This document shows positions 1 through 12,567 of a stretch of DNA of 64,000 nt, piece after piece. The notes below the pieces were generated by a model. That model worked only from the letters and a program-made list of their open reading frames with translations. It made no database searches and had not been told where the DNA came from. The translations under genes and the position numbers were made by a program. Origin of the DNA: an uncultured Pseudomonadota bacterium (lineage in GTDB: Bacteria; Myxococcota_A; UBA796; GCA-2862545); the NCBI GenBank assembly GCA_913061235.1, contig CAJXTB010000017.1, positions 1-64,000 of the forward strand, in the 5' to 3' direction. Each line of letters opens with the position of its first letter. Within the stretch, counting starts at the first letter, position 1.

Positions 1-306
1 ACCGCCACCACAGGCGGCGTCGCCGATGCAGTCGGAGTCGCCGCAGTCGATTGTGCGGTCACCGTCGTTGTCGATTCCGTCATCGCAGATCTCGGGACCA
101 CCGGCACAGGCAGCCGTGCCTGCGCAGTCCGTGTCGTCGCAGTCAATGTCGCCGTCGCCGTCGTTGTCGATTGTGTCGCCACAGCTCGTTTCAATGGGCG
201 TTGCGCTGTCAGCTGTATCCGACGTTCCGGGGTCCGAATCGACAGGGATAGTGCTGGGGCAACCAGTGAAAAGCAGGGCCAAAGAAATGAGAAGAGCGTG
301 GCGCAC
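1..306 (-). CDS. Lipoprotein with MopE-like Asp/Cys repeats, truncated by window edge
   Basis: A GTG start at 306-304 sits 4 nt after GGAGG. The product opens with a lipoprotein signal (VRHALLISLALLFTGC, lipobox FTGC), so it is probably an outer-membrane or surface lipoprotein. After a Ser/Asp/Thr linker come repeats of the type CGDxIDNDGDGDIDCDDTDC and ICDDGIDNDGD, which match the putative metal-binding (MopE-like, calcium-loop) repeats common in Myxococcota. Aspartates at regular spacing and paired Cys suggest Ca2+-bound, disulfide-pinned loops. The frame is still open at base 1, so the C-terminus lies outside the window. Its role is unknown. Confidence 0.8.
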   Translation of the reverse strand, partial: MRHALLISLALLFTGCPSTIPVDSDPGTSDTADSATPIETSCGDTIDNDGDGDIDCDDTDCAGTAACAGGPEICDDGIDNDGDRTIDCGDSDCIGDAACGGG

Positions 307-925: not shown

Positions 926-1843
926 CTAGTCCTCTAAGGAACGCTCCAATAGCGTGTAGTTTCGCAAGAGCTCGCCTCCGAAGCGCGACCAAGACTGACT
1001 GGCTGACCCTTCCCACATCAGGGCATATACGGCGGACTTGTAGCCTTTTCGGTGGAACCGCCTGTGGGCCGTGGCATTTAGCCAGGTCCCAAGGCGCTGG
1101 CCTGCGGCGCTAGGACGGATAGCGCTTGTCTTAATAATGGCCCATCGTCGGCTGGAATCGGCCAGATCTGGAACGCCGAAGAGAAAGCCGGCGGGAGTGC
1201 CGCCGGGGTCGGTCGCGAATAGGATGAGGTCTGGGTCGAGTGCGAGTCGATACGGCGCATACAGGGCTTGAAGTGTCTCGCGTGGCAACGGAACAAAGCC
1301 AAAAGCGTCGGCAAATGCTTCATGTGCAATGTCGTGAATGGTGTCTACGGCACGGACAAAAGCCTCTTCGGGAACATGACCATCGTTGTCCTTCGGCAAT
1401 GACTCTATCGACCACCCTTCGCTCTCAAGCCGTGCGGCAATCGGGATGCTCGCCTTGAGGATGGCCTCGTGAGGCATCAGCGTTGAGGTGTACTGCGCGC
1501 AGGGAGCGTAGCCGGCGGCCTGCCACCGGTCGGGAGGCTCTGTGGGCTCGAGCAAGAACGGACCGTGTTCGTGGGGCCCGTTGTTCACTCGGTAGGAGAA
1601 CCATGAACACAGCAACATGGGGCCGCGGGCGACGGTGCAGCCCTTGGCCTTGAGCCACGCTTCGGCTTGTCGGAGAACGGCGGTATCCCCAACCCAATCG
1701 CCGATTGCGCCGACTGTTGGATTGCTGGGATGGATGCCCGCCACGCAGCGGCTGTCTCCGTCGCCGATGGCGTGAATCTCGCCAACGCTCTGGAGAAGGG
1801 CGAGCTGGGCTGCGTTTCCGCCGGCATCTGTGTAGGCACTCAT
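926..1843 (-). CDS. YghO-like GNAT-superfamily N-acyltransferase (candidate ceramide synthase)
   Basis: 305 aa. The N-terminal part carries GDWVGD...AWLKAKGCTVARGPM, and the C-terminal part has a GNAT-like core (LILFATDPGGTPAGFLFGVPD, then IKTSAIRPSAAGQRLGTWL). This matches the YghO-type acyl-CoA N-acyltransferase family, which includes the bacterial ceramide synthase described from Caulobacter. The ATG overlaps the stop of the upstream lipoprotein gene by 4 nt (ATGA), so translation is probably coupled. It lies in the same strand run as the acyl-AMP ligase/ACP/alpha-oxoamine synthase fusion, which makes N-acylation of a sphingoid base a reasonable role. The family assignment is moderately firm; the substrate is inferred. 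Confidence 0.7.
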   Translation of the reverse strand: MSAYTDAGGNAAQLALLQSVGEIHAIGDGDSRCVAGIHPSNPTVGAIGDWVGDTAVLRQAEAWLKAKGCTVARGPMLLCSWFSYRVNNGPHEHGPFLLEPTEPPDRWQAAGYAPCAQYTSTLMPHEAILKASIPIAARLESEGWSIESLPKDNDGHVPEEAFVRAVDTIHDIAHEAFADAFGFVPLPRETLQALYAPYRLALDPDLILFATDPGGTPAGFLFGVPDLADSSRRWAIIKTSAIRPSAAGQRLGTWLNATAHRRFHRKGYKSAVYALMWEGSASQSWSRFGGELLRNYTLLERSLED

Positions 1844-2868
1844 GGCATCACCGTCAGGACAAAGCGGGCGCGTTCGCCCTCGGTTGGAAAGGTCATCGCG
1901 GAGAGGGTTCGTGCGACGCAGCGCTCGCGGAAGTCCCGCCTTTGACCTGTGATGTCGCCAACAAACACCTTCAGGCCCAGGGGCTTGCCGTCTGGGCCAA
2001 TGTCGACTTGGGCCAGTGCGGCAGCTTGGGCGTTGTTCTGTGGTGGACGGGTGCGCGTGCGGGTGATGCGTAGGCAGGCGTCAATCTCGTCGTCCACAGG
2101 CGCGAAAGCGGCGGTGAGACTTGCAGTGTCAACAGCGCCCGGCTCAAATTGGAAGCGCTCTGATGAGTTGGACTGTGCCATTGCCGCTTCGAGTCGTCCG
2201 AGCGGCGGGCCGCAGACTGCTGAGTCACCGAGCACAATGGGGAGCACCGCGCCGGTTCCCCGTGTGGTGACCTGAAGGCCACCTGCTGGGGGCGACGTCC
2301 CTTCGTCAAGCGTCTCAACGTCTGCCCGTGTGCACGCAATGCCCTGACCCCGTGCCGCATCCACCACGCTGAGGGCGGCGCTCGTTGGGCGGTCGTTGCC
2401 TGAGAGAACCCGCATGCCGGTGGCATCGAGCAGGGTTCCGAGCATTCGGGCTTCTTGGCCGGTAATGAGCGCATCTGTGGTGTTCTTGCGCATGGCGTAG
2501 TCTTGGTCGAGCCACGTCACATCCACCTGCGAGCCGAGGGTCTGTGTCATGGCAGGCTCGGGTGTGGCGTCTGCCACAAGCATGTCCACCCGACCGGTGT
2601 GAGCTGCGAACACGGACAGGTAGGAGGCAGTGACTTCCCAGCGAACCGAGGGGTCGACCGCAAAGACTGGCACGCTGTCGGGCGGGTGCACAGCAAGCGA
2701 TGTTGCTAGGTCCGTGACCGTGACCGTCTCTCCCTTCCACGTCTGGAGGGTGGGGGTGAGCACGAGCAGTGCGGCCCCGGTCAGGTCGCGTGACTCGGCA
2801 TGAGTGGCCACAGGTACGGTGACGAGCGGAGCGGTCGAACAGGCAGCAAGCCAGGCAATCAGAATCAT
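1840..2868 (-). CDS. Lipoprotein with TonB/AgmX-like C-terminal domain
   Basis: 342 aa. The start MILIAWLAAC gives a very short signal peptide ending in a lipobox-like AAC. In-frame upstream codons add HRLAFG, which would make a better n-region, so the true start is uncertain. The middle (LHPPDSVPVFAVDP, then GRVDMLVADATPEP) recalls ExbD/TolR periplasmic repeats. The last ~80 residues (ACLRITRTR...AQVDIGPDGKPLGLKV, CVARTL..MTFPTEG) resemble the AgmX/TonB-like C-terminal module common in Myxococcota lipoproteins. It lies between the lipid synthase fusion and the YghO-like gene and is translationally coupled to the latter. Function is unknown. Confidence 0.7.
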   Translation of the reverse strand: MILIAWLAACSTAPLVTVPVATHAESRDLTGAALLVLTPTLQTWKGETVTVTDLATSLAVHPPDSVPVFAVDPSVRWEVTASYLSVFAAHTGRVDMLVADATPEPAMTQTLGSQVDVTWLDQDYAMRKNTTDALITGQEARMLGTLLDATGMRVLSGNDRPTSAALSVVDAARGQGIACTRADVETLDEGTSPPAGGLQVTTRGTGAVLPIVLGDSAVCGPPLGRLEAAMAQSNSSERFQFEPGAVDTASLTAAFAPVDDEIDACLRITRTRTRPPQNNAQAAALAQVDIGPDGKPLGLKVFVGDITGQRRDFRERCVARTLSAMTFPTEGERARFVLTVMP

Positions 2869-2929
2869 GCCGAAGGCTAACCGATGCAGGCCTCATGAGG
2901 ACGCATCTCCCAGTGGTCAGACGCTGTAT

Positions 2930-5900
2930 TTAGAGGATCATTCCTGCTTCTTGGCACGCTTCACGAATCGCGTTCACAACACCGCGTAGGTCGGCGTCGG
3001 ACTGCTTGTTGGTGATGGTCAGGCGCAGGCCGGCCCGCCCAGGAGCGACGGCGGGGAACGCGGCGAGGTTCAAGAACCAGCCTTGTTCCACGACCTTTTC
3101 GGCGACTTCCATGGCCGCGGCATCGCTGCCAATGTGGATGAACTGCACGGGTGAGCGCATGTCCGATGGACTGGTCAGCCCTACGGCGTCCAGTGTCTGA
3201 CGGAACAGCGCGATGCGGTGCGTGAGAGCGTCTTGCAGGGCGTAGATCTCATCCGACAGGTGGATGTCGGCACAGGCAACTCCGGCACCGAGGGTCGGGG
3301 GAGACAAGGGCCCAGAGAAAATCATGGTCGGACCGCACGTACGCAGCATGCGTCGCCACTCTTCATGCGGGAAAATGAGCGCACCACCGGTGCCCATGGC
3401 AAAGCCCTTGGACAGGGACACTGCAACGACCATCTTGTTGTGTAGGGTCTCCTGCGCGCCGAGAACAAGCCCACGACCGTGCTTTCCGTGGATCGACATG
3501 CCGTGTGCGTCGTCTGCATAGCAGAACAGGTTCGGGTACTCATCGAGCAGTGCGAGCACCTCATCGATTGGGCAGACATCACCGAACATGGAGTAGATGC
3601 CATCCATCGCGTACCACACGCGCCGGTCTGGGGCTGTGGCGTCGAGAAGTGACCGCAGAGCATCCATATCGTTGTGTGGAACGGTCTTGACTTCAGTGCC
3701 GTGCTGTAGGGTTGTACTGGCGGCCAGCTGGACCGAGTTGTGCACGCTCGCATCCAAGACAATGAGCTCACCCGCGTTGATGAATGTCTGCATGAACGAG
3801 AAGGTGCCGAGCGTGGTGGTCGGTGTGGAGACCGCGGGAGCGCCGAAGATGTGTGCCAGCTTGGTCTCAAACTCGTCGTACAGGGGATTAGACGCATAAG
3901 CCCTGGACATTGCGAAGCCCGCGCCGATCTGGGTCGTGGCGGCAATGGCACCCAGCTTCAGACGCGAGTCAACCTCAAGACCCAGATAGCTACACGAGGC
4001 GAAGTTGATGAAGGACTGGCCTCTGCACAGGAAGGAGCGACCGTCTAGGACCTGCCCAGCATCGACGTCGTTGTGGCAGAGCCCTGCCGCCTTGGCGAGC
4101 TGAACACCACTATCAATGACCTGTACACGCTTGGTCTGGAACACGGCACGAGGGTCTGACACTGGCTGCGCATGTTTGGCCTGTTCAGGCCGCAGACGGC
4201 TGCGCATTTTCCCGTATTGGAGCTTGCCGTTGTAGGTCCGCGGGATGGTTCCGCTGTCGACTACATGGACCTTGAACGGTCTCACGCCGAGCTGGTCTTG
4301 GACCTGTGTGCGCACGGCCCGTGCAATGCGCATGCGCTCGTCTTCAGGCTCGTTCTTGCGGCGTGTCTCTACAAACAGATGCACTTGCTCGCCAAGGTCG
4401 TCCCCGTCATCGAGGCCTAGGGCCATGGCTAGGATGACCTCGCCCACGCAATCGGCTGCTTCTTCAATCTCGCGTGGGGACAGCGTTCGCCCCGCCACAA
4501 TGATGACGTTCTTGGTCCGGTCGACAATGAACAGCTGACCAGCGTCGTCCAAGTACCCCAGGTCCCCCGTGCGAACGGCTCCGTCTGCTGTAAATAGGCT
4601 GCGCGTTGCTTCGGGATTCCGGTAGTAGCCGACTGTCTGTGACGGGCTCTTTAGGCAGACCTCGCCCACTCGGTTGGCACCCAGGATGGCCCCGCTTGCG
4701 TCGCGGATGGTCATGTCGATCTCTGCCATTGGCGAGCCCACGCAGACAACACCATTGGAGTCGACTTCGATGCCACCCTTGTTGAAGTCGTAGAAGCTCA
4801 CGCCTACGGTCAACTCAGCCAAGCCGTAGCCAGGGCGAAGAATGCCTGGAATACGGAATGCGGACTCAAACGCTTTGACCGTGGTCGCGCGAATTGGCTC
4901 AGCGGCAATCAACGCCATGCGCAAGCTGCGAAGGTTGTAGTTGCTGGGGTCACCGCAGGTGCGAAGGACGAATCGGTAGGCGAAGTCGGGGGCTGCTGTG
5001 ACCGTACCGCGTTCCGTTTGGATGGTTCGCAGCCAGGTGTCTGCGCTTAGGGCGACGGGCAGCAAGACCAGGCGGGCGCCAAGGTACAGCGGACACAGGG
5101 TCATGGTGATGAGGCCCATGTCGTGATAAACGGGGAGCCAACTCACAAAGACGTCGCTCGGATGCATGTGGCAGGTGGGGATGGTCTGCCGGACATTTGC
5201 CAAGAGGGCCGCGTGGGTCAGCATCACTCCCTTTGAGTCACCGGTGGTTCCAGAGGTGTACTGAAGCATTGCGATGTCAGTGGGGGCTGGAACAGGCAGC
5301 GACGCTGTGTCTGCGGCGGTGGTGGCCAACAGGGCAGGCACGTCTAAGAAGAGCACGTCCGTCTCTGCCAACTGCTCCATCAGCTTCTTGCGCATAGGCT
5401 TGGCAATCGGCTTGAGTGTGATGACGACCTTGGCGGAGCAGTGCTTGACGATTCGGGCGATGCGGTGTGGCTGAGGCACGTGGTAGACGGGAACCGATGT
5501 GGCTCTCAGGCGCTGGATACCGTAGAAACAGGCGAAGAAACCTGCACTGTTGGGCATGACCAGGACCACATGGTCCCCGTGAGCAACGCCGTGCGCTTGC
5601 AGGCCCGCGGCTACGCGCCGGGTGTCTTCTTCGAGTGCGGCGTAGGTCAGGCCTTCGCCTTGGAAGGACAGCGCCTCACCCTCGGGGTTGTGATGGGCTT
5701 GCAGCATGACCATGTCTGTCAGGGTGTTGGCGGTAGCGAGCGGGTCACATGGGTAGAACTTATCGATCGCCCGAATGTGGGCGTCGGCTGAGCCGCGGAT
5801 TGGCGGAACGTCGGTCCATGCTCTGGGCAAGATGGACGACAAGCGACGGGTGCTCAACGTGCCGATGAGCGCGTTGTACAGGCCTTCAACGGTGTGGGCC

Positions 5901-6079
5901 TGGCTCATGTCCACGCCTGCAATGCTCTGCCCAACGTCTTTCTCTACTCGACGGATGACCTGTAGGACATCCATGGACTGCATGCCGAGGGTACCGGCGA
6001 GGTCGGAGCTGGGTTCAATGCTGGATAGAGGAACAAGCGACTCTTCGGACAGAATCTTCAAAAAATCGTCGATCTTCAC
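2930..6079 (-). CDS. ACP - fatty-acyl-AMP ligase - alpha-oxoamine synthase fusion (serine palmitoyltransferase-like)
   Basis: About 1049 aa from a GTG at 6079 preceded by GAGG at 5-nt spacing; an ATG at 6181 adds 34 unconserved residues without a ribosome site. Domain 1 (1-80) is an acyl carrier protein with Ser35 in LGMQSMDVL. Domain 2 (~105-620) is an acyl-AMP ligase with P-loop YTSGTTGDSKG at 274-284 and SWLPVYHDMGL, typical of FAAL enzymes. Domain 3 (~650-1049) is a PLP-dependent alpha-oxoamine synthase with DDAHGMS and the PLP lysine in SLSKGFAMGTGG (about Lys891). A single chain could activate a fatty acid, load it on its ACP and condense it with an amino acid, as serine palmitoyltransferase does. 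CqsA- or BioF-type products are alternatives. Confidence 0.88.
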   Translation of the reverse strand: MKIDDFLKILSEESLVPLSSIEPSSDLAGTLGMQSMDVLQVIRRVEKDVGQSIAGVDMSQAHTVEGLYNALIGTLSTRRLSSILPRAWTDVPPIRGSADAHIRAIDKFYPCDPLATANTLTDMVMLQAHHNPEGEALSFQGEGLTYAALEEDTRRVAAGLQAHGVAHGDHVVLVMPNSAGFFACFYGIQRLRATSVPVYHVPQPHRIARIVKHCSAKVVITLKPIAKPMRKKLMEQLAETDVLFLDVPALLATTAADTASLPVPAPTDIAMLQYTSGTTGDSKGVMLTHAALLANVRQTIPTCHMHPSDVFVSWLPVYHDMGLITMTLCPLYLGARLVLLPVALSADTWLRTIQTERGTVTAAPDFAYRFVLRTCGDPSNYNLRSLRMALIAAEPIRATTVKAFESAFRIPGILRPGYGLAELTVGVSFYDFNKGGIEVDSNGVVCVGSPMAEIDMTIRDASGAILGANRVGEVCLKSPSQTVGYYRNPEATRSLFTADGAVRTGDLGYLDDAGQLFIVDRTKNVIIVAGRTLSPREIEEAADCVGEVILAMALGLDDGDDLGEQVHLFVETRRKNEPEDERMRIARAVRTQVQDQLGVRPFKVHVVDSGTIPRTYNGKLQYGKMRSRLRPEQAKHAQPVSDPRAVFQTKRVQVIDSGVQLAKAAGLCHNDVDAGQVLDGRSFLCRGQSFINFASCSYLGLEVDSRLKLGAIAATTQIGAGFAMSRAYASNPLYDEFETKLAHIFGAPAVSTPTTTLGTFSFMQTFINAGELIVLDASVHNSVQLAASTTLQHGTEVKTVPHNDMDALRSLLDATAPDRRVWYAMDGIYSMFGDVCPIDEVLALLDEYPNLFCYADDAHGMSIHGKHGRGLVLGAQETLHNKMVVAVSLSKGFAMGTGGALIFPHEEWRRMLRTCGPTMIFSGPLSPPTLGAGVACADIHLSDEIYALQDALTHRIALFRQTLDAVGLTSPSDMRSPVQFIHIGSDAAAMEVAEKVVEQGWFLNLAAFPAVAPGRAGLRLTITNKQSDADLRGVVNAIREACQEAGMIL

Positions 6080-6303
6080 AGCAACCTCAGGCTCCCCGTC
6101 AGCGCCGTGTCGAGGCTGCCTAGGGGGAATGAATGACTGGCGTTCTCTTTCGCATTGGAACGGGGAAAGGCTTGGATTCATCTCATGAAGTCACGGACAG
6201 GAAACTCCATGTGTTTACCCTAGCATGCCGGATTGGTAATCACGATAGGGATTTCACTTGGGGACATGCTGGTGGCGCAGAACGAACCGCTCGTGGCCTC
6301 GAA

Positions 6304-7536
6304 TCAGCCGGTAGCGGCTACGGTGATCCCCCAGACAACGATGGCTATGCCCAGGCTAATGGCCAGTCTACGCCCGATGGCTGTGGCGTTTCGGAACAGG
6401 AATAGTGCGCTATATGCGACGGTCGCACCTGCCAGTGGGGCGAAGAAGTGTGCCTCAGGTTGGATGGCCTTCGCAATTACGAGCGGTACGAGGGCACCGG
6501 CGATGCCAAGCAGGGTTCGTGGCCACTTGCGAACCGTGGCAATGAGCAGTCCTCCCATTGCACCGCTGGCGGCAACGGTTGTCAGGTACATGATGTACAA
6601 GTCTTGGCGGTCGGTGTGGGCGTAGGCGAGGACAACCAGCACAGTACTGGCGGTGGTTGGGAAGACGCGCTCGAGTGTTGTTGCATCGGGGGTACGAGCG
6701 ATGAGAAACCCGCCATACACAGCGAGTATGGGGAGGAACCATGCCCAACCACCGAGTGCGTAGGTCAGGGTGGCGACGACAAAGACCATGACCCCACCGG
6801 CAACGTCTAGTCGAGCGCGCGTCCACGTCAGCAGCAACAGAAGGACGCCGAAGACCATGCCTAGGGTCCAGTCTCCGAGTGCTTCGAGCCCCAGTCGTTC
6901 GGTGTGTTCGAGGGCCAGCCATGCCGCGTACGGAATGCCTACATTGTCGCTTCCGCGCACACTGACCGACTCGATAGCTGTCGTCAGAGCGGCAACCACT
7001 AGGGCAACCAATAGGGTGGCTGGCCACACCGGCTGACCAGCGACGGCGCTTGCGATCAGAACGATGGAAAAGGCGAGACCGAAGAAGGCCATGGAGCCCT
7101 CCACGCTCCGAGTGCCGTCCATCACCGTGTAGGTCGTTTCACCTGCTCGTTGGCCTACAATTGCCGCACCGGTGTCCGCGATTGCCATGATAGCGAGCGG
7201 CACGCAGAACAACAGCGGGTCTCCATGGGAAAGCAACCAGACACCTAGGACCGCAAGCGGGTAATAGTAGGCCCCGCTCGTGCGACGTTCAACGTTGTGA
7301 ATCGAGCTTAGGAGTCCCGTGATGCGACCCCCCAACAAGATGCCGCCAAAGGACATCGCCAAGATGGCAACGGTGAGCGTGTGCTCGAGCAGCCACGGGA
7401 AGGCGAAGACAATGAGCCCAGCACCCACGTGCGTGCCCTTGCGCGTGTACTCGACTGGCAGTGACCACGTCCGGAACACCACCTCCGCCACCACGAACAA
7501 TGTGGTGATGTACACCGCGACCACAATGGCGCCCAT
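6304..7536 (-). CDS. Dolichol/phytol-kinase-like CTP-dependent lipid kinase, polytopic membrane protein
   Basis: About 410 aa from ATG 7536 (MGAIVVAVYITTLF). An open frame continues upstream but is antisense to the next gene and low in hydrophobicity. The N-terminal VEYTRKGTHVGAGL matches the E/RKxxH signature of the dolichol kinase/phytol kinase/DGK1 group, and more than ten hydrophobic helices follow. A characteristic region contains ADTGAAIVGQRAGETTYTVMDGTRSVEGS, as in CTP-using polyprenol kinases. It lies 224 nt upstream of the lipid synthase fusion on the same strand, so it may phosphorylate a lipid alcohol or long-chain base from that pathway. The substrate is inferred. Confidence 0.75.
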   Translation of the reverse strand: MGAIVVAVYITTLFVVAEVVFRTWSLPVEYTRKGTHVGAGLIVFAFPWLLEHTLTVAILAMSFGGILLGGRITGLLSSIHNVERRTSGAYYYPLAVLGVWLLSHGDPLLFCVPLAIMAIADTGAAIVGQRAGETTYTVMDGTRSVEGSMAFFGLAFSIVLIASAVAGQPVWPATLLVALVVAALTTAIESVSVRGSDNVGIPYAAWLALEHTERLGLEALGDWTLGMVFGVLLLLLTWTRARLDVAGGVMVFVVATLTYALGGWAWFLPILAVYGGFLIARTPDATTLERVFPTTASTVLVVLAYAHTDRQDLYIMYLTTVAASGAMGGLLIATVRKWPRTLLGIAGALVPLVIAKAIQPEAHFFAPLAGATVAYSALFLFRNATAIGRRLAISLGIAIVVWGITVAATG

Positions 7537-7555
7537 GGCGTCGGCTTGCAGTTGG

Positions 7556-9334
7556 GTGAGGGCGGTAGCGAGCAGGGTCAAGCGAGCTCCGCTCGGTGGG
7601 GTTGGTGTCTTGCTGTTGGTGAGTGTCGCCGCCTGTACGCCGCAGAACAACCCAGATCCCGAAACTCCGGTCACTGAGGTCCCTCCATCACCGGTACTGC
7701 CCGTGTTGGTCATCACGGAACCGGCGCGTGCTGGGTGGTCCACGGGGCCGGTGACTGTTCGCGGTTCGACTGTTGCTGGAACCGGTGCTCTCGATTCGCT
7801 GATGGTGCACGATGTGTCGTTGTCGCTGGATGCGACCGGCGGTTTTGAGTCGATCATCGACCCACCGCCCGGGATTGTGTTGGTGTCGAGTCGCCTCAAC
7901 GACGCCCTCGGAGAGCGGGCCGTTGACGCTCGCGCGGTTCATGTCGGCCCCGTTCGTCCACCCGGAGACGCCATTGAGGGAGCCGTCTACCTAGAGCTTG
8001 GACGCGAGCTGTTAGATGACAACGACCCCGAGCCTGACGACGTCGCTGCGGTGCTTCAGCGGTTGATGACCGACTCTGCCTTCTCGGACAGTCTGGTTGG
8101 CCTGACGTTTGGCACGAGCCTGCCCATCACTCTGACCGGGCTCAATGTTGCGGCCGCCGATGTCGACATTGAGCCGGATGATGGCGAACTCGCTGTGTAC
8201 ATTGAGCTGTCGGACCTGCGTATGGACTTCACCGCAGTGGCCGGTGGAACACCGATTGTTGGCAATACCACCACGGAAGAAGCCGAGATTGCGGTGGTCT
8301 TCGGTATTGAGGCGGGTGCACAGGGGCTTGTTGTCGATCTGTCGACTGTCTCGGTCAACTTGCGTGGATTTGAGTGGGAGACGGATGTCCTGCCGACAAG
8401 CGTAGAGGGCATCTTTGCGGGTACCGTTCGCGCTGCACAAGAGCAGGCGTTCCTCACCGCACTTCAGACCCAAGTTCCAGAGGTCATCCGCACCTTGTTG
8501 GAAGGGTTCGCGTTTGAGTTCGCTGTTGGGGAGTCGCTGTCGCTTCAGATTGACCTGGACATTGGAGACCTGCAGGTCACGCCCAATAGCTTGGTCCTAC
8601 GGTTGGATGCGTCGGTTGAGACCCCATCCGGCATGCCCCTGCCTCCAGGTGCCGGCTCCCTTCAGACATCCGGAGCGCCGCCACCCTTTCCGTCAGGTGA
8701 TTGGCGACCCGTTCACCTGGCGATTGATGACGACTTCCTCAACCAACTGCTGTTCGCCACCTGGCACTCGGGAGTCATGTCCGACCTGACGCTGAGTGGA
8801 ACGGAACTCATCTTGTTGACTGGCGAAGACTTGCCGCCGCCGCTGGGTCCAGTCGAGCAGATCACGGTTAACTTGCAGCTTCCACCGGTGCTGTCCCCGT
8901 CGCTGAACCTGGATGGCGAGGGGCAGTTCTCCGCGGACCTGACGATTGGCGGATTGGTCTTGGACATTGAACGTCAGGACGGCGAGCGCGTTGAGACCAG
9001 CTTGGGCGTGCGTGCGGGTGTGGAGCTTGGCGTGGCGGGGGCGGGCATTGACCTGGCCCTCGACAACCGCCCGACTGCGATGGTCGTGCAGGCTGGAATG
9101 ATGACCTACCCAGAGGCGCTGGACCCTGGCGACCTAGCGAGCTTGTTCCGCTTGTCGGCACCGGGTCTGGTCGGTGGGGCGCTCGACTTCTTGCCAGCGC
9201 TGCCTACGCCTTCGGTGGACCTCGGGGCGTTGTCGACGGCGTCGTCTCTTCAAGGGGTGACCTGGACGATGACCGAGGCTGAGGTCGAGATGCAGCCGAG
9301 TGGCTGGCTGGTGCTGAGCGGCCGGATGGAGTGA
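7556..9334 (+). CDS. Large predicted lipoprotein of unknown function
   Basis: About 592 aa. The GTG at 7556 gives VRAVASRVKRAPLGGVGVLLLVSVAAC, a classical lipoprotein signal with basic n-region and lipobox VAAC. The mature part is acidic, rich in beta-strand-like LDLSTVSVNL / LQIDLDIGDLQV stretches, and resembles repeated lipid-binding-like modules, but no family was recognised. The start lies only 19 bp from the divergent lipid-kinase ATG. A terminator-like hairpin (9419-9436) follows. No catalytic motifs are visible. It is likely an outer-membrane or periplasmic structural protein. Confidence 0.78.
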   Translation: MRAVASRVKRAPLGGVGVLLLVSVAACTPQNNPDPETPVTEVPPSPVLPVLVITEPARAGWSTGPVTVRGSTVAGTGALDSLMVHDVSLSLDATGGFESIIDPPPGIVLVSSRLNDALGERAVDARAVHVGPVRPPGDAIEGAVYLELGRELLDDNDPEPDDVAAVLQRLMTDSAFSDSLVGLTFGTSLPITLTGLNVAAADVDIEPDDGELAVYIELSDLRMDFTAVAGGTPIVGNTTTEEAEIAVVFGIEAGAQGLVVDLSTVSVNLRGFEWETDVLPTSVEGIFAGTVRAAQEQAFLTALQTQVPEVIRTLLEGFAFEFAVGESLSLQIDLDIGDLQVTPNSLVLRLDASVETPSGMPLPPGAGSLQTSGAPPPFPSGDWRPVHLAIDDDFLNQLLFATWHSGVMSDLTLSGTELILLTGEDLPPPLGPVEQITVNLQLPPVLSPSLNLDGEGQFSADLTIGGLVLDIERQDGERVETSLGVRAGVELGVAGAGIDLALDNRPTAMVVQAGMMTYPEALDPGDLASLFRLSAPGLVGGALDFLPALPTPSVDLGALSTASSLQGVTWTMTEAEVEMQPSGWLVLSGRME

Positions 9335-9339
9335 GCTGT

Positions 9340-9660
9340 CAGCTGATGGCTTGTTTAGATTATAGGGCTTTGGATGGCAGCTATCAGAGGTCAGAGGTCA
9401 GAGGTCAGAGGTCAGAGCACCCGGCTTGCGCCGGGTTCGTTTTCAGAGAGTGCTGTGAGGCTGGAGTGCTGTCGCGGGACGCAGATGCTGTCTGCCATCC
9501 GCCAACCCGCACGAATCCGCTGGCCCGCAACTCGCGAACCTCCACAGTCCACCTCCGAAACGCTGGCCCCGAAGGGGGCCTGCTCTGACCTCTGAAATCT
9601 GTCCTCTGACCTCTCGAATCACCGAGATTCATTCGCGTCTCACCGCTCACCGCTCACCGC
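9340..9660. repeat. Inverted heptamer-repeat element between convergent genes
   Basis: 9384-9417 holds almost five copies of TCAGAGG. 9584-9614 holds the reverse complement type (CTCTGACCTCTG and again CCTCTGACCTCT). 9639-9659 holds three copies of CTCACCG that run into the end of the next gene. Partial inverted repeats AGCTGTCAGCTGATGGC and GATGGCAGCTATCAG flank the left array. Inside are hairpins at 9419-9436 and 9565-9580. It resembles the simple heptameric intergenic repeats seen in some Myxococcota and Planctomycetes rather than CRISPR or an IS. Confidence 0.65.
9419..9443 (+). terminator. Rho-independent-like terminator after the 7556-9334 lipoprotein
   Basis: CCCGGC-TTGC-GCCGGG forms a 6-bp GC stem with a 4-nt loop, extended by an A-T pair, followed by TTCGTTTT. 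It sits 85 nt after the stop codon, inside the heptamer-repeat region. Confidence 0.55.
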
Positions 9661-10484
9661 CCGCTTCTCTGCAGCGACAGCATGGAGAGCCTTGCCGTGA
9701 TGGCGGCGGCGTCTTCGGCGTCTGGAACCGTTGCCAGGTAGGTCGCTAGAGCATCCGTCGCTTCAGCAGTCTCGCCAAGATTGCTGAGGGCGAGTCCTAG
9801 GTCGCGGTACTGCTCGGGACCGTCGCTCAAAATCATCAGCATTCGGCTGGCGCGCGCCACACCAGCGGCATCTTGGCTCATGGCGTGACTGGCTTTGAGG
9901 TTGCGGCAGATGCGCGCGATGAAGGACGCGTTTGACACCGGTGCCAGCATGGCTTGCCACGCGCGTTCGGTGATGGTGGCGTCGGGGTAGGTCTTCTCGA
10001 ACAGTCCCCAAAGCTGGTCTTCTTGCAGCACCCGACCCTGGTGGAAGGGGTCGATAAACACCGGGGACTCGCTGTGCCGTGGACGCAGCACGAAGTGTCC
10101 GGGAAAGCCGACACCGTCTAGGTGGATGTCGAGACGCCGGGCGACCTCGGCGTACACCAGTGACAAGGTGATGGGCATGCCCCGTCGCCGGCCTAGGACA
10201 CGGTGAATCAGGCTGTTGTCGACGTGGTGGTAGTTGTCTTGATCGCCCTGAAACTCGAAGCGCCGAAACAAGACTTCATTGATGCGTCCCATTCCGCGAC
10301 CGGGAGCAACGCCGGGGCTGTGACCGGTGGCCTTGGCGAGTGTGTCGAGGTCATCAACGACGGCCGCCGGGTCGCATGCGGGGTCCTCGTTCATGGCAAC
10401 GGCAATCGCCCCTTGGTCGAGCGGAAGGTCGTCCCCGTGAGCTGCGACAAGGTCCGCGAGACGGGTGGAGATGGTGTGGGACAC
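9654..10484 (-). CDS. SirB1-family transglutaminase-like/TPR protein
   Basis: 276 aa, the usual length for the SirB1 family (transglutaminase-like superfamily 2 plus a TPR tail). Diagnostic segments are INEVLFRRFEFQGDQDNYHHVDNSLI, RRGMPITLSLVYAEVARRL and VGFPGHFVLR. The C-terminal third (GPEQYRDLGLALSNLGETAEATDALATYL) reads as TPR helices. The last codons run into the CTCACCG repeats, so the C-terminus (LQRSGR) may be repeat-derived. The cytosolic role is unknown. Confidence 0.85.
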   Translation of the reverse strand: MSHTISTRLADLVAAHGDDLPLDQGAIAVAMNEDPACDPAAVVDDLDTLAKATGHSPGVAPGRGMGRINEVLFRRFEFQGDQDNYHHVDNSLIHRVLGRRRGMPITLSLVYAEVARRLDIHLDGVGFPGHFVLRPRHSESPVFIDPFHQGRVLQEDQLWGLFEKTYPDATITERAWQAMLAPVSNASFIARICRNLKASHAMSQDAAGVARASRMLMILSDGPEQYRDLGLALSNLGETAEATDALATYLATVPDAEDAAAITARLSMLSLQRSGR

Positions 10485-10617
10485 GAGTGACTCCGCTGAG
10501 ACGTGGGCTCTTTACTCTGTTCGGGTGGGTGCGGTGGAAGCCGGGGCGGGTCGAATGTGTTTGTTGGGAGTGCTATGGGGCGCTCATCTGGGCGCTACCT
10601 GCCCTTTTGGAGCGTCC

Positions 10618-11169
10618 ATGTCCCGCCTACTCGCTGTCGCCAGCCTCCTCGCCCTCGGGTGTGGAACCAAGAAGACACCCGAACCCGATGCGACCCCCAC
10701 ACCGCCGCCCACACCCGAAGTGCCGGCGATGGTCGATGCGGACAGTGATGTCGATACCCAAGCTGCAGTAGTGCCTCTGGATGAGTCGCTTGAGCTTCTC
10801 AACACCCGCTGGGAGCTCCAGTCTTTCAATGGTGAGGCCATGGAGATGGAGCCGGGTTCACGCCAGCTCTTCTTCCGCGTTGACTACGGCACACCGCCGG
10901 ACCTAGGGGGCTTTGGCGGCTGCAATCGCTTCTACGGAACCGCATTTACGGCTACTGCCACCACGGTGGCCTTCGGCTCAGTGGGACTGACTCGCATGGC
11001 CTGCCCGAACTTGTCAGCCGAGCAGATGTTCATCTCAACGTTGTCCAAGGCGGACACCTGGACGGTCGAGGGTGACACCCTGACTCTGATGGCTGGCACT
11101 GAGTCGACGCTCGTGTTCGAGCGCGCGCCGGATGCTGATCCAATGGATGAGGCTCCCGCGCAGCCGTAG
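10618..11169 (+). CDS. META-domain (HslJ-like) lipoprotein
   Basis: 183 aa from ATG 10618, preceded by GGAG. MSRLLAVASLLALGCG is a lipoprotein signal (lipobox LALGC), followed by a Pro/Thr linker. The META domain follows (LLNTRWELQSFNGEAM, FGGCNRFYGTAFTATATTVAFG, LTRMACPNLSAEQMFISTL), with the family's GGCNxFxG core. META proteins such as HslJ are envelope proteins linked to stress and novobiocin resistance. It ends 3 bp from the convergent UdgX-type gene, so no terminator separates the two. Confidence 0.85.
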   Translation: MSRLLAVASLLALGCGTKKTPEPDATPTPPPTPEVPAMVDADSDVDTQAAVVPLDESLELLNTRWELQSFNGEAMEMEPGSRQLFFRVDYGTPPDLGGFGGCNRFYGTAFTATATTVAFGSVGLTRMACPNLSAEQMFISTLSKADTWTVEGDTLTLMAGTESTLVFERAPDADPMDEAPAQP

Positions 11170-11172
11170 CGG

Positions 11173-12567
11173 TCATGCGGTTGAGCGGGTCATTGCGGTT
11201 GCCTTGAGAAGCGCGTCGTGCAGTTGACGGCGCAGCTCAGAGGAGTCCGGGCGTCGCAAGATGGCGGCGGGATGCGGACCTACAATGAGCGTGTGCCCCC
11301 CACGAGCGGTCAGCCTTCGTCCGTAGACGGACTGCAGCTTCACGGCTCGGCCGAGCAGTGTCCGCGCGGCTGTCGTTCCCAACGCCACCACGACTGTGGG
11401 TTGGATGCGAGACAGCTCAGCGTGAAGAAACGGAGCGCAAAGCTCGGCATGAAGTGCTTCGGGGCGCTCGTGAAGGCGCTGCTTGTTTTGCTTTTTGTGG
11501 TGGAAGTGCTTTACGGCATTGGTCAGGTAGACCTGCTCCCGCTCAAGCCCCACCGCGTTCAGCGCGTCCATGAGTAGACGGCCTGCGGGGCCCACGAATG
11601 GCCGTCCTTCGGTGTCTTCGCAGTCACCCGGCTGTTCACCAACAATGACGATTCGCGCGGTCTGTGGGCCTTCTCCCGGTACTGCGTGAGTGGCCGGACC
11701 CGCGAGGGGACAGCCGCGACAGCGCCGAATGGCGTCGTGAACGGCAGATAGGGGAGCGGCGTCTGGAGGTAGGACCGCAGACGCGCCCTGTGGATTGCGT
11801 GCAGCGGACTCTGCCAGTCGCTTCGGAGCCTCCGCGAGCAGTCTTGCAATCAGCTTGGTCTCCGGCATCGTCCCCCAATGTTTCATTGGCATCTCCGAGC
11901 GCATGGCGTCGGTCAGAGTGCGCGCGGGGTTGTAGATACTGGCGTAGTAGGTGCACCACAGGGCATCCAGGTCGTCTTGTGTCGGGGAGATGTGGTGTGC
12001 CACTCCAGGTCCGTACACCACGCCGTCCTCTGGAGTGAAGACGGCAGACCCCTTGGGAGTGAGCAGGGCAAAGCGCATGTCACCGAAGCGTCGAACGAAG
12101 TGCGGTGTGGCTTGGCGAATGATGAAGTGGTCAGGGCGGTGCCAGCTCACCCAGCGCTCTCCGGCGTCGTCTATGGTTTTTGCGAACCGCACGAAGGCAT
12201 GCATCTTGTGGACGTCTCGATGGACGGTCTTGGCTCGGCGCTTGAGCTCGCGGACCTCGCGAATTCCGATGTCGTCGAGGACCTGTCCGCCGCGTTCGGC
12301 AACGAGGCGGGCGACGGCGTAGGGAAGGGAAAAGCGGTCGGGTGCGTCGAAGGCCAGTCCGCTTCTGGCCAGGGTAAAGAAGGCCCTAGGCATCGACGGT
12401 AGCGGCCTGTCTGTCACGGGTGCTGGTGGTGCGGCGAACAGCCCAGACTGCGTGCTGCCTACAGGACGCCACTCAATGTCCTGCGCCTCGGTCTTTAGGG
12501 CGAGCAGGGGACGAACGGCGTCTCGCCAGGCGTCAAAGTGGGGCTCAAATACGGCGCTGTAGCGCAT
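11173..12567 (-). CDS. DUF4130-UdgX fusion (uracil-DNA glycosylase superfamily)
   Basis: 464 aa. The N-terminal ~250 residues are the DUF4130 module (MRYSAVFEPHFDAWRDAVRPL, WRPD HFIIRQATPHFVRRF). The C-terminal ~200 residues are a UdgX glycosylase: motif I GEQPGDCEDTEGRPFVGPAG, TNAVKHF, and the UdgX-specific loop KQRLHE with His366 at the position that in mycobacterial UdgX forms a covalent bond with uracil-abasic DNA. Motif II reads GPHPAAILR. It lies 2 nt downstream of the radical-SAM partner on the same strand, the usual pairing. It probably locks onto or removes uracil in DNA. Confidence 0.9.
   Translation of the reverse strand: MRYSAVFEPHFDAWRDAVRPLLALKTEAQDIEWRPVGSTQSGLFAAPPAPVTDRPLPSMPRAFFTLARSGLAFDAPDRFSLPYAVARLVAERGGQVLDDIGIREVRELKRRAKTVHRDVHKMHAFVRFAKTIDDAGERWVSWHRPDHFIIRQATPHFVRRFGDMRFALLTPKGSAVFTPEDGVVYGPGVAHHISPTQDDLDALWCTYYASIYNPARTLTDAMRSEMPMKHWGTMPETKLIARLLAEAPKRLAESAARNPQGASAVLPPDAAPLSAVHDAIRRCRGCPLAGPATHAVPGEGPQTARIVIVGEQPGDCEDTEGRPFVGPAGRLLMDALNAVGLEREQVYLTNAVKHFHHKKQNKQRLHERPEALHAELCAPFLHAELSRIQPTVVVALGTTAARTLLGRAVKLQSVYGRRLTARGGHTLIVGPHPAAILRRPDSSELRRQLHDALLKATAMTRSTA

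Follow-up and report, generated by a model that had tools for sequence, protein, structure and literature searches.

The window analysed here comprises 64,000 nucleotides (positions 1 to 64,000 of contig CAJXTB010000017.1, from an uncultured bacterium of the Myxococcota_A), and its first 7.5 kb hold a row of four genes on the minus strand encoding a membrane protein, a multidomain fusion, a lipoprotein-like protein and a GNAT acyltransferase. The fusion unites an acyl carrier protein (ACP) domain, an AMP-forming acyl ligase and an alpha-oxoamine synthase (AONS). We read it as a self-loading AONS whose action may resemble the opening half of the bacterial sphingolipid pathway, a reading to which we assign a probability of about one half. 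As the AONS falls in the PRK07505/Alb29 clade and outside the serine palmitoyltransferases (SPT), a true sphingolipid is a less likely product than an aminoketone lipid resembling ceramide.

The open frame of the fusion covers 2930-6181 on the minus strand and has no internal stops. Translation from a GTG at 6079, which has a good ribosome-binding site in front of it, yields 1049 aa, exactly the length reported in an earlier note on this DNA, and an alternative upstream start (ATG 6181) gives 1083 aa. The claim of that note that the three activities lie in one chain is borne out by the single frame and by the Pfam and NCBIfam domains along it. The carrier domain lies above the cut-off of its family model (25.8 against 20.8 bits) and keeps the serine that receives the 4'-phosphopantetheine in the motif GMQSMD (Ser69 of the 1083-aa frame). 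The nearest ACP-ligase protein of genome G042 (L060, 6462-8357, plus strand; 44% identity to the window's) has a proline in place of this serine (GVHPID), and its ACP domain is therefore probably dead.

The ligase domain is 48-49% identical to ACP-ligase proteins of genomes G098 and G042. It had been described as a fatty acyl-AMP ligase (FAAL), which agrees with only some of the features held to be diagnostic of these enzymes (PMC8460268). The bulky W, M and F that block the pocket for coenzyme A (CoA) in the E. coli enzyme AasR (the solved EcFAAL, 3PBK), and the pocket P, are kept in the window (SWLPVYHDMGL and APDFAY; PDB numbering offset 13). The segment at the place of the FAAL-specific helix (TQDFAMR in EcFAAL), however, is unrelated and three residues shorter. 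In addition, the window ligase is missing some 22 residues that E. coli AasR and the FAAL encoded on C4 of this genome both have, and we take these to be the FAAL-specific insertion. Given the fusion, transfer to the built-in ACP is the natural guess, and the earlier proposal of acyl transfer inside one polypeptide follows naturally from the architecture, although without these two hallmarks the name FAAL is not warranted.

With the NCBIfam models the AONS domain scored best on PRK07505 (NF005697; 262-264 bits, yet under the cut-off of 342), followed by BioF (167 bits), ALAS (89) and CqsA (83). The SPT models NF047599, NF047600 and NF047603 gave 125, 114 and 90 bits against cut-offs of 500, 640 and 670, whereas the Spt of E. 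coli BL21, taken as a control, reached 599 bits on its own SPT model (cut-off 500) and 127 on PRK07505. Among solved structures the best match was Alb29 (8XHA, 8I7U; 157 bits), and 8XHA is named as Alb29, an AONS using L-glutamate (PMC11906848). A tree of 62 sequences was built with IQ-TREE (LG+C20), in which CqsA and ALAS sequences were not included, these two being judged by family model only. One branch with 100/100 support has on one side the SPTs of E. coli, Sphingomonas and Myxococcota, BioF, Kbl and an AONS borne on a polyketide synthase (PKS) of the same genome, and on the other side the window AONS, its relatives, Alb29 and two rhizobial proteins. The branch of the window AONS is long (1.23), which makes it uncertain which member of the clade is its nearest neighbour. 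Family models and tree together rule out an SPT, a BioF or a Kbl; a CqsA- or ALAS-type enzyme is unsupported by the models. The earlier assignment as an SPT is thus contradicted, and the label of a sphingolipid synthase, which depends on it, loses its support. The grouping with CqsA- or BioF-type enzymes against which the same note had cautioned was not seen either, BioF lying across the 100/100 split and CqsA being disfavoured by its model score.

The catalytic residues corresponding to BioF His133, Ser179, Asp204, His207, Lys236 and Arg361 are all kept, and the window AONS should therefore be an active enzyme of another branch. The position of BioF Asn47 is occupied by Cys, and across the clade it is often Ser, Cys or Ala. 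The position of Kbl Val79 is a serine.

Relatives of this AONS (E < 1e-45, 35-44% identity) were found in 41 of 379 genomes of the phylum, and a search of named genomes with the AONS alignment gave 80 best loci, from Bacteroidota, Myxococcota, Actinomycetota, Methylobacter and others. A GNAT of the Acetyltransf_6/FemAB type is joined to the C-terminus of the AONS in 27 of the 33 Myxococcota loci and in 53 of the 80 named ones, two sets that overlap slightly. This AONS-GNAT didomain protein (about 800-870 aa; L080-L159 and L042-L077) is widespread in Bacteroidota, including Flavobacterium johnsoniae (L155), in Myxococcota and in Actinomycetota. Its AONS part is 35-45% identical to that of the window and its nearest NCBIfam model is PRK07505, under the cut-off; no characterised member was found in the literature searched. 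The possibility that its GNAT belongs to the family of the window GNAT is unsupported (hhalign probability of about 2).

Neither ligase nor ACP is fused to the AONS in any of the 113 other loci examined. In three Myxococcota loci (L052, L067 and L074) the gene right after that of the AONS-GNAT protein encodes an ACP-ligase or ligase-ACP didomain, and the four activities are thus found again, divided in another way between proteins; the ligase of the L074 didomain is 49% identical to the window ligase domain. The search for the architecture and its neighbours that had been recommended yielded relatives in three of which ACP and ligase lie together on a gene of their own. No second ACP-ligase-AONS fusion turned up in 63 order genomes, in the matches to ACP-ligase from 284 genomes of the phylum or in the 80 best named loci. 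The distribution of the fusion is sporadic (1 of the 63 order genomes).

The genes and domains are listed in Table 1. The lipoprotein gene, which the earlier note did not mention, starts 61 bp past the fusion and has a 4-bp overlap with the start of the GNAT gene; its product had no Pfam or NCBIfam match and no homologue in the 57 nearest genomes. The GC content and the GC content at third codon positions (GC3, 0.68-0.72) are uniform along the four genes, and no compositional signal of a recent foreign insert or horizontal insertion was found along them. As position 1 of the window is also position 1 of the contig (C17), the stretch past the GNAT can be read for 925 bp only, and contains a gap of 480 bp, the start of a lipoprotein and then the contig end. 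This lipoprotein start (window 1-306, minus strand) carries repeated DNDGDGDIDCDD-like motifs and is interrupted by the contig end.

Table 1. Genes and domains at the beginning of the window
Feature	Position	Strand	Length and evidence
CTP-type lipid-kinase-like integral-membrane protein	6304..7536	-	~410 aa from ATG 7536; orthologues, alignment
ACP - AMP-forming acyl ligase - AONS fusion	2930..6079	-	1049 aa; PF00550, PF00501, PRK07505
Acyl carrier domain of fusion	5870..6061	-	PF00550 25.8 bits; alignment
AMP-forming acyl ligase domain, FAAL-like without FAAL-specific helix and insertion	4172..5767	-	PF00501 266 bits; alignment; residue check
AONS domain, PRK07505/Alb29 clade	2933..4129	-	family models, tree, residues
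Lipoprotein-like protein	1840..2868	-	342 aa; open frame
GNAT N-acyltransferase, distant member of the YghO/bacterial ceramide synthase superfamily	926..1843	-	305 aa; hhalign, AlphaFold, orthologues

The GNAT aligned with the YghO family in hhalign (99.8%, E 2e-28, 249 columns), is 22% identical to E. coli YghO and has a predicted tandem GNAT fold (AlphaFold pLDDT 94). Its orthologues are 28-43% identical, some of them in genomes without the fusion. YghO is a known ceramide synthase gene (PMC9386255), and a YghO-like ceramide synthase had been proposed here on the same strand as the fusion. The homology at the level of the superfamily stands, but this is not the closest YghO homologue of the genome. 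Two full-length homologues nearer to E. coli YghO occur on C5 (8589-9671, 36%) and C26 (16346-17425, 28%), and the window GNAT misses the E 1e-12 limit of the own-genome search with E. coli YghO; these two proteins rule out the window GNAT as the main ceramide synthase of the genome. No SPT was seen adjoining them (L273 8547-9704, minus strand, on C5; L274 9308-10441, plus strand, on C26). The failure to see a ceramide reductase was confirmed when the check for CerR was extended to the whole genome, in which no orthologue and only generic short-chain dehydrogenases/reductases of up to 58 bits were found. Ceramide-type pairs were observed in other Myxococcota, namely SPT by YghO (L276), CerR by YghO (L277) and an AONS near YghO and CerR (L278).

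Contig C4 of the same genome (L071, 45001-60000) encodes at 4020-12513 a FAAL, an ACP and a PKS of 2119 aa with the domains KS-AT-ACP-KR-DH-AONS, and its AONS is the PKS-borne one that grouped with SPT and BioF in the tree. Many genomes of the order have AONS matches inside long frames, of about 2000-2190 aa. This PKS-AONS is a more plausible maker of the sphingoid base of the organism than the window locus.

The membrane protein has the conserved blocks EYTRKxxHVGAG, GAYYYPxAV, ADTGAAxVG and YxVMDGxRSxEGS, which resemble those of the dolichol/phytol kinase (CTP) family. It has no Pfam match, and its AlphaFold model (pLDDT 89) gave no confident fold match among solved structures, the nearest relevant fold being a weak match to the CDP-diacylglycerol synthetase CdsA (probability 0.80, E 0.65). 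Of the earlier claim of a CTP-type lipid kinase upstream, the integral-membrane protein is thus in place, and the motifs make it a putative kinase.

Orthologues of this protein (37-57% identical) were found in 12 related genomes. In 11 related genomes (L194, L197-L199, L202-L205, L211, L225 and L226) the kinase gene is directly upstream of the GNAT gene on the same strand with no AONS, and in seven of these an AMP ligase comes next after the GNAT (PRK09274/OleC-like where scanned). No clear pattern linked this unit to the presence of an SPT. The kinase-GNAT pair is the older unit, and the fusion and the lipoprotein sit between its members in the window. As the pair exists without an AONS, the neighbourhood alone does not prove a single pathway. 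The position of the fusion can mean that the ligase was replaced by a more capable fusion, or it can be a coincidence. In the latter case the fusion and the lipoprotein would have landed by chance in an older kinase-GNAT-ligase operon and the two units would work separately, an explanation favoured by the conservation of kinase, GNAT and following ligase in that order and by the GNAT orthologues of genomes without the fusion. We nevertheless find it somewhat unlikely. The usual separate AMP ligase is absent behind the window GNAT within the 925 bp to the contig end while the fusion brings a ligase domain of its own, which looks like replacement and not chance; moreover the genes share one strand, short gaps and a uniform composition.

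If the self-loading AONS is accepted, the ligase domain would activate a fatty acid with ATP and load it on the phosphopantetheine of the ACP in the same chain. The pyridoxal phosphate-dependent AONS would then condense the acyl-ACP with an amino acid and release CO2, giving a long-chain alpha-aminoketone, a chemistry that is well supported by the conserved catalytic residues. Serine is a possible substrate, although nothing found points to it. The YghO-related GNAT might next acylate the amine, which we hold with moderate confidence, and the membrane kinase could perhaps phosphorylate the product or a related lipid, which we hold with little. Our confidence falls from activation through ACP loading, condensation and N-acylation to phosphorylation.

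This scheme is supported by the intact AONS catalytic residues and carrier serine, by the habit of the clade, in which an AONS is combined with an acyltransferase and the four activities recur in other loci, by the YghO-superfamily GNAT, by the precedent of the working ligase-AONS fusion BioWF (PMC9544090) and by the uniform composition of the gene string. Several points weigh against it. The kinase and the GNAT stand together without an AONS in the 11 related genomes, so the partners proposed for the third and fourth steps may serve another pathway, and the GNAT on the didomain proteins of the clade is not detectably of the YghO type. The fusion was found only once. As the ligase lacks two FAAL hallmarks, it may load CoA rather than the ACP. 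A wider proposal, which we think unlikely, is that the single chain uses an amino acid other than serine and feeds the YghO-type acyltransferase and the CTP-type kinase to form an undescribed class of ceramide-1-phosphate-like membrane lipids, and that the AONS-GNAT family of Bacteroidota and Myxococcota makes related N-acyl aminoketone lipids.

The locus could also be imagined as a one-chain SPT that makes 3-ketosphinganine, in which case the GNAT would be the ceramide synthase and the kinase would form ceramide-1-phosphate. The set of activities equals that of the Caulobacter and E. coli pathway (AasR, AcpR, Spt and aca/YghO; PMC9386255), the GNAT is within the YghO superfamily, and the serine at the Kbl Val79 position is shared with SPT and BioF (PMC11906848). 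An AONS outside the SPTs might still accept serine. Furthermore, acylation precedes reduction in the current bacterial model, as in the Caulobacter-type pathway (PMC11087976), and the missing CerR is therefore not fatal for a keto-ceramide. We consider this quite unlikely, however, given the SPT scores of 90-125 bits beside 262 for PRK07505, the 100/100 separation from all SPTs, the Cys in place of BioF Asn47 and the lack of a CerR orthologue in the genome. The genuine SPT-YghO and CerR-YghO clusters of the phylum also differ in look, and the genome has nearer YghO homologues and an SPT/BioF-type AONS on its PKS. Similarly improbable is a secondary metabolite unrelated to membrane ceramide-like lipids, the aminoketone being either released or closed to a ring such as a pyrrole, pyrazine or oxazole. 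In favour of this are the sporadic occurrence of the fusion and the one characterised clade member that we met, Alb29, which acts on L-glutamate in a natural-product pathway (PMC11906848). Against it, no PKS or nonribosomal peptide synthetase, transporter or tailoring genes were noted beside the fusion, and the genes around it encode a lipid-type kinase and an acyltransferase of the YghO type.

If the fusion works as a self-loading AONS, the first committed step towards a ceramide-like lipid, acyl activation included, would take place within one protein. It would then be a convenient biocatalyst and could be used to test cleanly whether AONS enzymes of the PRK07505/Alb29 branch make lipids. 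It follows from the locus that an AONS adjoining a YghO-like GNAT is insufficient to predict sphingolipids. The large AONS-GNAT family poses a more general question than the fusion. In the literature searched no description was found of AONS-GNAT or ACP-ligase-AONS fusions, nor of an ACP-ligase-AONS chain whose AONS is from the PRK07505/Alb29 clade and which lies next to a GNAT of the YghO type.

A natural and functional fusion of an acyl-activating ligase with an AONS is known in BioWF of Corynebacterium amycolatum (PMC9544090), although BioWF makes acyl-CoA, has no carrier protein and serves biotin synthesis with an AONS of the BioF type. AONS enzymes fed by carrier proteins are known in AcpR-Spt (PMC9386255) and in PfSgaAB of Pseudomonas fluorescens MYb115 (PMC12134224). 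In PfSgaAB, a PKS with an SPT-like AONS, a carrier-protein system likewise delivers the acyl chain, but the chain is PKS-made and the AONS has proven SPT activity. The rhodobacterial ceramide pathway AasR-AcpR-Spt-CerR-bCerS(YghO), as in Caulobacter and E. coli BL21, has a ligase, a dedicated ACP, an AONS that uses acyl-ACP and a YghO-superfamily acyltransferase in series. The window differs from it in that its AONS lies outside the SPT clade, the first three parts are fused, CerR was not found and the FAAL hallmarks are missing. Alb29 of albogrisin biosynthesis is the best solved match and shares the side of the 100/100 split with the window AONS, but it is free-standing, takes acyl-CoA and has no ACP or ligase domain; because of the long branches its use of L-glutamate cannot be transferred to the window AONS. 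The AONS-GNAT didomain family belongs to the clade of the window AONS and couples an AONS to an N-acyltransferase, with the ACP/ligase didomain as the next gene in three loci, whereas its GNAT is fused and of the Acetyltransf_6/FemAB and not the YghO type, and ligase and ACP are never on the AONS.

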